A stretch of DNA of 64,000 bases from an uncultured Rubrobacteraceae bacterium (GTDB lineage Bacteria > Actinomycetota > Rubrobacteria > Rubrobacterales > Rubrobacteraceae): the NCBI GenBank assembly GCA_902806065.1, contig CADCVE010000054.1, positions 26,503 to 90,502 of the forward strand, in the 5' to 3' direction. The notes beneath the pieces are model-generated. The model saw only the letters and a program-made list of their open reading frames with translations, searched no databases and had not been told where the DNA came from. How positions within the stretch are numbered: position 1 is the stretch's first letter; every line of letters begins with the position of its first letter. Both the position numbers and the translations under genes were made by a program. Below, piece after piece: positions 59,818 through 62,663 of this stretch.

Positions 59818-60405
59818 TTAGAGCTCGTAGCGGACGAACCTGCGCACGACGATGTTCTCGCCGAGCCTCTGGATCGTCTCCTGTAACAGGTCCCCTACGG
59901 TCTTGTCCGGCTCCTTCACGAAGTCCTGGGTGAGAAGCGCCTTCTCGCTGACGAACTTCTTCATCCGGCCCTCCACTATCTTAGCCACGATGTTCTCGGG
60001 CTTACCTTCCTCGGCGGCCTGCTTCTCAACGATACCGCGCTCCTCGTCCATCGCATCCTGAGGGATGTCCTCCGGAGATACGGTTAGCGGGTTCATGGAC
60101 GCCACATGCAGCGCGATATTGCGGGCGAACGCCTTGAACTCCGGCGTCCGGGCCACAAAGTCCGTCTCGCAGTTGACCTCCACGAGAACCCCGACCCGGC
60201 CGTTGAAGTGTATGTAAGCCTCGATCAGGCCCTCGTGCGTCTCCCGCGAACTCTTCTTGGCCGCGATGGCCTGTCCGCGCTCCCTCAAGACGCGCCGAGC
60301 CCCCTCTACGTCTCCGTCGGAGGCTTCGAGGGCGCGCTTCACGTCCATCATACCGGCCGCGGTCTCCTCCCGGAGCTGCTTGATTTTCTCGATGGTGCTC
60401 GCCAA
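59818..60405 (-). CDS. tsf: Elongation factor Ts
   Basis: IKQLREETAAGMMDVKRALEASDGD; VLVEVNCETDFVAR. Confidence 0.97.
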   Translation of the reverse strand: MASTIEKIKQLREETAAGMMDVKRALEASDGDVEGARRVLRERGQAIAAKKSSRETHEGLIEAYIHFNGRVGVLVEVNCETDFVARTPEFKAFARNIALHVASMNPLTVSPEDIPQDAMDEERGIVEKQAAEEGKPENIVAKIVEGRMKKFVSEKALLTQDFVKEPDKTVGDLLQETIQRLGENIVVRRFVRYEL

Positions 60406-60410
60406 AACTC

Positions 60411-61592
60411 TTAGTTCTCCCCTACTCGTTCGTTGTCTCGCTCTTCGTCACCGTCCGCATCCGCCGGCGTGGCGTCGCTACCCTCGGGCGCTTCACCAAC
60501 CGGAGCATCTTCATCGGTCCCTTCCCGCAATGCGGTCTCCTCGCCCGGCCTCAGTTGTCCGCCGCCCGGAACACCCTCGGCGTCCCCGCTAGAGGCGCGG
60601 CCAGCCTCGGGTACGCCCGGTTCGTCCGCGGTAGTCGCGTCGGCGGCGGGAGCGTCGACAGCCCGGTCGCGTGCCCGTTCTTGCCTGTTCTCGGCGCCCC
60701 GGTAACTCGTGGTTGGGTCTTCCTCTGGCGCGATCTCACCGGCGGACTCGACCGGGTCTGCGAGGCCGTGAGTGTTGTTCTCGGAGACGCCACCCTCCGT
60801 GGCCGCCTCGGATAAAGGCTCCGTCGCTAACTCCTCGGCGACCATGGCCTCCTCAACCGCGGGAGGCATCGGGCGATCCACGGCTGGAGTGGGCTCTTCG
60901 CCCAGACCCTCGAAGATAGCGTCGGCTATCAGCTGCGATATCAGGTTGATCGCCCGTATCGCGTCGTCGTTGCCCGGGATAACGTAGTCCACGACATCCG
61001 GGTCACAGTTTGTGTCGGTCAGGGCGACAACCGGTATCTTGAGCCGGTTGGCCTCCTTGACGAGAAGTTCTTCTCGCTTGGGGTCGATCACGAACACCGC
61101 GCCCGGCAGCCGCTCCATCTCGGTGAGGCCGGCGAAGTTGCGCCGGAGCTTCTGGAACTCCCGGTAGAGCGCGAACCACTCCCTGCCGGTCCTCTCCTCC
61201 TCGGGCGTCTCCTCGACGGTCTGAACTAGCGTCTTGAAGTGCTGAATGCGAGGCTGGATGGTCTGAAAGTTGGTGAGCATCCCGCCTATATATCGCTCGA
61301 CCACGTATGGTTGCCCCGAGCGCACGGCCTGCTCGGCAACCGTAAACTGAGCCTGCTTCTTGGTCCCCACAAAGAGAACCTCGCGCCCAGCCTCAGCTAC
61401 CCCCCGGATAAACTTCCGCGACCGATCCAGGAGGGTCAGTGTCTGATCCAGGTCTATAATATGCACTCCGGCACGCTGGGCGAAGATGTACTTTTTCATC
61501 TTCGGATTCCACCGCTTGGCCTGGTGACCGAAATGTACCCCGGCCTCCAGCAGCTCTCTAACGCCTATATCCTGTCCTACTGTACTCTGCAA
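60411..61592 (-). CDS. rpsB: 30S ribosomal protein S2 with long acidic low-complexity C-terminal extension
   Basis: RELLEAGVHFGHQAKRWNPKMKKYIFAQRAGVHIIDLDQT...; core ends near DAIFEGLG, then about 160 extra residues; TTG start. Confidence 0.96.
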   Translation of the reverse strand: MQSTVGQDIGVRELLEAGVHFGHQAKRWNPKMKKYIFAQRAGVHIIDLDQTLTLLDRSRKFIRGVAEAGREVLFVGTKKQAQFTVAEQAVRSGQPYVVERYIGGMLTNFQTIQPRIQHFKTLVQTVEETPEEERTGREWFALYREFQKLRRNFAGLTEMERLPGAVFVIDPKREELLVKEANRLKIPVVALTDTNCDPDVVDYVIPGNDDAIRAINLISQLIADAIFEGLGEEPTPAVDRPMPPAVEEAMVAEELATEPLSEAATEGGVSENNTHGLADPVESAGEIAPEEDPTTSYRGAENRQERARDRAVDAPAADATTADEPGVPEAGRASSGDAEGVPGGGQLRPGEETALREGTDEDAPVGEAPEGSDATPADADGDEERDNERVGEN

Positions 61593-61611
61593 GTTACCGC
61601 TTCTCCTTTTT

Positions 61612-61693
61612 CAGGTGGTTAGACCTCCGCCCGCGCCTCGCAACCCACGGAAGTTGATTCGATGTAACTTCCGCAGACCACCACCTGGGTTGC
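61612..61693 (-). ncRNA. Candidate structured rpsB (S2) 5' leader: bulged hairpin plus potential pseudoknot
   Basis: Arms GCAACCCA/TGGGTTGC and CGGAAGTT/AACTTCCG stack with a 12-nt one-sided bulge; CAGGTGGT (+ 61612-61619) is complementary to ACCACCTG (+ 61680-61687). Confidence 0.65.
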
Positions 61694-61794
61694 ATTTAGC
61701 GAACCCTCTGGCGAGCGTGTGTAATAAGACCCGCAGATACTAGCATAGAGGCGCATGGGCTTCTAGCCGGCCCCGTACACTTTTATCAGAGGGT

Positions 61795-62663
61795 TTAGCC
61801 GAAGTTCTGTTGCCAGTCTCCATGTGCCAGCGGCGAGCCTTTCAGATGCTCCCGCAGTTTGGTCAGGGCGCGACGCAGGATCTGGCTGACACGACCCTCG
61901 GTCAGGTCTAGCGCTTTGCCGATCTCTTTGAGGGTAAGCCCCTCGTAGAAATAAAAGGTCGCGACGACCCGTTCGCGCTCCTCGAGCTCGCCTATAGCCG
62001 CGATGAGGTGGGCACGCAAGTCCCCGTTGTCGGCCTGCGATTGCGGGTCAGCGACCGACACGTCTCTAACAAGCGCCCCGTACTCGACGCCGCTCCGACC
62101 CTCGACATCCAGGCGCGCCTCCAGCGAGACGACCTGAGCGCGGGAGTACTGGTCGAGAAAGTTCCGATACTCCTCGACCTTTATGCCTACCTGCTCGGCG
62201 ATCTCGCCCTCCGTTGGCGCGCGCCTGAGTTCCTGGGACAGCCAGGCGGTAGCGGTCTCGACCTCCTTGGCACGCACTCGCACGCGGCGCGGAACCCAGT
62301 CCTGGCTACGCAGATGGTCGAGGATAGACCACCGAACCTTGGATATCGCATATGACTCGAACTTTGCCTTCTTGCCGGTACGATCCGGGTCGTAGGTCTC
62401 AACGGCATCTAGTAGGTCCAGGACACCCCCGGGGAGATCATATCCTCCTGCTCGACCAGCCCGGGCACCCGCGCCCCAACCCTGCTGGCGACATACTTGA
62501 CGAGCGGGGAGTAGTTGGTAACGAGACGGTCCCTGAGCCGACCAGCCTCGCGCTCCATCTCCAGCCATTCCTCGCTCTTCTCACCCTCGCTGGCGCTTTG
62601 CAAAAGCTCGCCGCGCACGTTCAGGTACCTGGCCCACAGACGCCCGACGGTCCTGTCCGTCAT
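61795..62663 (-). pseudogene. whiG: WhiG/FliA family sigma factor, split by a frameshift near 62420-62435
   Basis: Frame 1 MTDRTVGRLWARYLNVRGE...LVTNYSPLVKYVASRVGARVPGLVEQEDMISPG| (62409-62663); frame 2 VLDLLDAVETYDPDRTGKKAKFESYAISKVRWSILDHLRSQDWVPRRVR... (61795-about 62430). Confidence 0.85.

Follow-up and report, generated by a model that had tools for sequence, protein, structure and literature searches.

Known leaders of rpsB

The leaders of ribosomal-protein mRNAs are believed to have, for the most part, a narrow distribution. In E. coli, excess ribosomal protein S2 represses the translation of rpsB-tsf through the mRNA leader (PMC10931766, PMC2704228). S1 assists in this control, and deleting a conserved bulge of the leader can abolish regulation (PMC10931766). 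This S2 operator corresponds to the t44 RNA (RF00127). The rpsB motif described by Meyer et al. (2009; RF01815) is listed there for Proteobacteria, Cyanobacteria, and some Firmicutes, Actinobacteria not being included, and an actinobacterial S2 leader is absent from a survey of ribosomal-protein leaders (PMC7247131). The actinobacterial L31 and L17 leader motifs (PMC7247131) are, like the element presented here, candidate autoregulatory 5' UTRs from the same phylum, but they belong to other genes and display other structures. No description of an actinobacterial rpsB leader was found in the open papers searched; the survey of Fu et al. (2013) may include one.

The leader considered here is located in a 64,000-nucleotide window, the whole stretch of DNA analysed, from an uncultured Rubrobacteraceae bacterium. 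It shares with the rpsB motif its position upstream of rpsB within the 5' UTR, a P1 stem ending in a junction that bears variable P2 and P3 (a three-stem form as in Rubrobacteraceae), a pseudoknot between J2-3 and the strand that follows P1, and the CACA and GNGG-N-UAACC flanks. In contrast, the Rubrobacteraceae pseudoknot is 7-8 bp long instead of ~5, and the junction between P3 and P1 (J3/1, UUGCGAGGC, 61635..61643, minus strand), conserved in the family alignment, is a feature of the window leader. With t44 RNA it has in common CACA-P1, the GGU strand, P3, GAGG, and UAACC. However, E. coli and most other Actinomycetota possess a nested P1b, with GGU in a 5' bulge, whereas Rubrobacteraceae possess a separate P2. 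Furthermore, the strand of the E. coli pseudoknot (GGGGU/ACCCC) lies further from the Shine-Dalgarno (SD) sequence than in the window.

The rpsB-tsf locus and its promoter

The rpsB and tsf genes lie on the minus strand at the right end of the window; the source assembly, a draft, totals 3.75 Mb over 112 contigs. rpsB (60411..61592), with a UUG start at 61592, encodes ribosomal protein S2 (Pfam PF00318, E 2.9e-88), and the next gene of the operon, tsf (59818..60405), encodes elongation factor Ts (Pfam PF00889, E 7e-40). The SD region, AAAAAGGAG, is read directly at 61603..61611 (minus strand), with ACCACCUG (61612-61619) directly 5' of it. Upstream, the minus strand displays in order GCAACCCA (61686-61693), a bulge, CGGAAGUU...AACUUCCG, and UGGGUUGC (61640-61647). 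A sequence-only reading had proposed from these letters an S2-controlled hairpin, and its quotation of them matches exactly the minus strand upstream of rpsB-tsf.

A consensus promoter scan found nothing; it was conservation that revealed the promoter. The extended -10 element, TGCTAGTAT (61737..61745, minus strand), follows the TGnTAnnAT motif, which is present in 26/26 family upstreams and in 0/260 control windows, and stands 19-75 nt before P1 in all 26. A -35-like TAGAAG (61760..61765, minus strand) precedes it by 17 nt and occupies the same position in nearly all of the 26 family members, with a spacing of ~17 nt in most. Transcription is predicted to start near 61730, so that the element would form the 5' end of the mRNA. 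The possibility of a start site downstream of the hairpin had been raised beforehand; the predicted promoter, kept in all 26 relatives, precedes the entire element.

Upstream of the leader, a sigma-factor gene (61795-62663, minus strand) with Sigma70 r3/r4 domains, WhiG/FliA-like by context, is split at ~62425-62435 by a frameshift of 1 nt within a run of GGGGG. Relatives read through this point uninterrupted, as EDMISWGVLGLLDA. The frameshift may stem from misassembly or may be a genuine lesion. The closest relative (L003) has an in-frame stop (FLD*YS) in its own copy of this rpsB-upstream sigma gene.

Architecture of the leader in Rubrobacteraceae

The leader element spans 61612 to ~61721, just 3' of the promoter; this extent follows from the location of P1 between the CACA and GAGG flanks. 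All features below are on the minus strand. The conserved CACA (61718..61721), found in the family and phylum alignments, flanks P1 on its 5' side. P1 pairs CGCUCGC (61711..61717) with GCGGGCG (61628..61634), and P2 pairs GGGUU (61702..61706) with AACCC (61687..61691). J2/3 contains the 5' strand of the pseudoknot, AGGUGGU (61680..61686). The extended P3, of 12 bp, pairs UCUGCGGAAGUU (61666..61677) with AACUUCCGUGGG (61644..61655), the latter strand being also supported by the ensemble fold. P1 is followed by the conserved GAGG (61624..61627), found after P1 in E. coli too, and by the 3' strand of the pseudoknot, ACCACCU (61613..61619), which ends beside the SD.

Comparisons within the family, taken as the window's own family within the genome set, used an alignment (A1) of the rpsB-upstream leaders of 26 genomes. 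P1 is 7/7 paired in 26/26 leaders, with a compensatory change in one of them (L019, CACCCGC/GCGGGUG). P3 (UCYG.../...CRGA) covaries, with double changes at 5/6 pairs, its first 6 bp being 88.7% paired. The three stems of RF01815 are thus all present on A1, P2 being the weaker one: it is variable yet mostly paired (76.6%), with double changes at 3/5 pairs. Over the whole structure, 92.5% of the cells are paired, against 88.1% in shuffled alignments and at most 47% when the structure is slid, and double-change cells number 31 versus 11.8 in shuffles. Single-sequence folding gives the region an ordinary energy (z -1.64) and was uninformative; the evidence for structure is comparative. Covariation had been set in advance as the check for the hairpin; it is present in the family, in P1 and P3, and in the phylum, in P1 and the flanks of the pseudoknot.

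The fold recovered differs from the hairpin first drawn, a 16-bp stem with a 5' bulge placed at 61612-61693. This interval overlooked the main helix, P1 (61711-61717 with 61628-61634). Although such a stem can be drawn, the ensemble probability of the outer half, GCAACCCA/UGGGUUGC, is 0.00. This half forms all 8 of its pairs only in the window, with 3-6/8 in the 25 relatives, and 58.0% of its cells are paired in Rubrobacteraceae leaders as compared with 56.9% in shuffles. As a conserved helix it was dropped, the relatives' pairing equalling that of shuffled controls, with no covariation signal. In the conserved alternative, its letters belong to P2 (GGGUU/AACCC) and to the extended P3. It might be argued that the drawn outer stem and bulge function in the source species as a switch that competes with the pseudoknot. 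The fold energies are equal when P1 is present (-30.1 vs -30.0 kcal/mol), and other Actinomycetota, like t44 RNA, do have a nested stem whose 5' bulge bears GGU. Such a switch is nevertheless very unlikely, in view of the null ensemble probability, of a stem complete in the window only, and of the conserved P2 and P3 that take up the same letters. The likeness of the drawn hairpin to the t44 topology in the window genome is probably a coincidence.

Distribution across Actinomycetota

S2 was found in all 199 of the 199 Actinomycetota genomes sampled. A descriptor composed of CRCA, a helix of 5 bp or more and, after its 3' strand, GAGG (or close), N, and ACC matches 102/146 Actinomycetota rpsB upstreams, against 0.7% of dinucleotide shuffles. 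Antisense copies yield 2 matches under the most permissive threshold and none under stricter settings. The letters of P1 vary freely while its pairing is kept, as in CGUUGGU/GCCAACG, GCGCGCG/CGCGCGC, CGCGUGA/UCACGCG, CCCCGGC/GCCGGGG, and CACCGCA/UGCGGUG. Among 49 phylum-wide core blocks, both-sided changes occur at 7/7 P1 pairs, and the P1 covariation score is 0.614 versus 0.156 in shuffled and at most 0.15 in slid alignments. Pairing over 5 bp or more was among the criteria by which these blocks were selected, which inflates the percentage paired; the fair phylum evidence is the covariation together with the descriptor control. The block of the window carries one extra base in this alignment, which costs one P1 pair and leaves the other 48 unaffected.

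The ordinary single-sequence fold energy would suit a reading in which chance or DNA-level inverted repeats near the promoter, devoid of RNA function, account for the pairing. The signal, however, is strand-specific, and P1 and P3 show compensatory changes with G-U pairs kept. This reading is strongly disfavoured by the covariation and can be considered extremely improbable.

Judged from these comparisons of sequence, a structured leader occurs across much of Actinomycetota. RNAalifold, unaided, folds 30 non-Rubrobacter leaders into P1a, P1b, and P3, with 15/18 pairs covarying and GGU in a 5' bulge, whereas Rubrobacteraceae leaders display no conserved P1b and a P2 hairpin instead. Several of the 44/146 upstreams that fail the descriptor are divergent variants. 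Some rpsB upstreams (L097, L118, L130, L055, L084, and L124) seem to be devoid of the element, which suggests lineage-specific loss or replacement. In one group of Actinomycetota (L072, L081, L089, L030, L103, L140, and L151), and likewise in Streptomyces-like L057-L061, an extra hairpin, GC-rich in the former, is inserted between the post-P1 GAGG and the AACC pseudoknot strand.

The pseudoknot

The 8-bp complementarity between CAGGUGGU and ACCACCUG pointed out by the sequence-only reading is real, with a helix ensemble probability of 0.84-0.92. In Rubrobacteraceae, AGGUGGU/ACCACCU is paired at 6-7 of 7 positions in 26/26 leaders (98.3% paired). The GGUGGU/ACCACC core is invariant within the family, and covariation in support of the pseudoknot is supplied only by other families. 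Phylum-wide, GGU/ACC is invariant and its flanks covary, giving variants such as UCUGGU/ACCAGA, CGCGGU/ACCGCG, and UAAGGU/ACCUUA, as well as UCUCGGU/ACCGAGA in Streptomyces-like genomes; outside the family, the three flanking pairs hold in ~43-67% of the sequences.

GGU is found in the P1 loop at 102/102 descriptor-positive loci. The GGU/ACC extension within the same locus averages 2.37, as compared with 1.16 ± 0.11 between loci (maximum 1.52, 200 permutations), and outside the family 1.70 versus 0.89 (maximum 1.18, 500 permutations). When GGU is picked by position only, flanking pairs 1 and 2 beat all 2000 permutations while the third does not (p 0.22). At the 44 descriptor-negative loci, pseudoknot pairing reaches 3.02 versus 2.10 between loci (0/300 permutations). 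In the thermodynamic ensemble of the window leader, nearly isoenergetic folds lacking the pseudoknot exist; these modelled alternatives would fit the expectation for a switch, a weak indication in its favour.

Kinship with the E. coli leader

An Rfam search of the window at gathering cut-offs returns no match. Taken alone, this empty search would suggest novelty; a permissive search revealed kinship with RF01815, which matches the window leader over its full length with 25.4 bits (E 0.0018), below its gathering score of 40. Permissive matches of Actino-pnp and gyrA in the window are at chance level and were discarded. At or above the cut-offs, RF01815 is found in 0/150 and RF00127 in 0/61 Actinomycetota genomes, the best score of the latter being 37.2 versus 44. 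The four best RF00127 matches in these 61 genomes (29.5-37.2 bits) nevertheless lie directly upstream of rpsB; a further weak match was obtained besides them.

The reverse search used a covariance model (R2) of 30 actinobacterial leaders, built without Rubrobacteraceae or Proteobacteria. Within the 1-kb rpsB region of E. coli K-12, R2 finds the leader over its full length (L157 371-454; 38.3 bits, E 2.8e-8), a match that overlaps the T44 RNA annotation. It also finds the window leader (61611-61728; 24.6 bits, E 1.8e-4), the next match in the window scoring 8.5 bits. R2 matches 98/398 genomes of the phylum (E <= 0.1, strict filters), so that the coverage by a single model is partial. A model of the Rubrobacteraceae leaders alone (R1) matches 22/22 complete family genomes and, in the source genome, identifies one strong site, at rpsB (82.8 bits, the next reaching 18.1). 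R1 finds most tested leaders of other families; the E. coli leader is not found. Two genomes each display two separate strong leader matches, on contigs C55 and C156 of G219, which score identically, and on C71 and C81 of G199, a genome with two S2 matches. These pairs are probably duplicated or contaminant contigs, or possibly a second rpsB copy.

The structure had initially been described as looking independent of that of E. coli. This view is contradicted by the arrangement CACA-P1...GGU...P1'-GAGG-N-AACC with a J2/3 pseudoknot, common to rpsB/t44 RNA, and by covariance models that recover homology both ways, from Rfam to actinobacterial leaders and from R2 to E. coli. Sequence comparison thereby indicates that the element and the validated E. 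coli S2 operator have a common origin or follow the same design. The suggestion that the element might be undescribed applies to its actinobacterial form only, the rpsB/t44 type being known. The window element is a variant of the S2-leader kind, outside RF01815 and RF00127 as those models stand.

Proposed function of the leader

The leader can most probably be classed with the rpsB/t44 type, as a divergent form that serves S2 autoregulation and whose SD-abutting pseudoknot S2 would stabilise. Comparative analysis shows its location, its promoter, the helices P1 and P3, the pseudoknot, and the homology with the S2 operator of E. coli. A role of the window leader in S2 autoregulation is likely, and we infer S2 binding, translational repression, and SD blocking in Rubrobacteraceae. 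What is retained from the original S2-leader idea is a structured, pseudoknotted rpsB-tsf leader whose 3' strand touches the SD; its outer stem and its independence are not.

In the proposed mechanism, the first ~120 nt of the rpsB-tsf mRNA would fold into a divergent Rubrobacteraceae form of the rpsB/t44-type leader. P1 would close a junction bearing hairpins P2 and P3, with AGGUGGU of J2/3 paired to ACCACCU next to the SD. Free S2, possibly together with S1 as in E. coli, would bind and stabilise the folded junction and pseudoknot. Since the SD region lies immediately 3' of the pseudoknot strand, stabilisation of the pseudoknot by a ligand would directly impede the loading of 30S subunits there. 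The synthesis of S2 and, by coupling, of EF-Ts would then fall, matching S2 output to the 16S rRNA supply. A terminator scan found no intrinsic terminator in the leader, and transcription attenuation is therefore not favoured.

Two other readings can be envisaged. S2 is thought to stabilise the SD helix on the ribosome. The leader might thus be a distinct Rubrobacteraceae operator, in which P2 replaces P1b and the longer SD-abutting pseudoknot acts as an on/off switch, with the nearly invariant GGAGG and the SD-like AGGUGGU serving as decoy or standby sites for the 30S anti-SD and S2 recognising the imitation of an SD helix; this is unlikely. Alternatively, a structured 5' UTR might serve mRNA stability or standby ribosome binding without S2 sensing, as the element begins at the predicted mRNA 5' end and its nearly invariant GGAGG, upstream of the true SD, could bind the anti-SD. 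This is quite unlikely for an element that is rpsB-specific, with one strong match per genome, and whose architecture is common to the E. coli S2 operator, for which S2-dependent repression has been reported (PMC10931766).

Significance

With the S2 autoregulatory leader as the preferred reading, the core CACA-P1-GGU-P1'-GAGG-AACC links E. coli to Actinomycetota, including genomes tentatively named Streptomyces-like and Mycobacterium-like. It fills a gap in RNA annotation, all tested actinobacterial examples falling below the Rfam cut-offs, and adds independent sequences from which the features recognised by S2 could be worked out. S2 autoregulation thus becomes testable in a second phylum.
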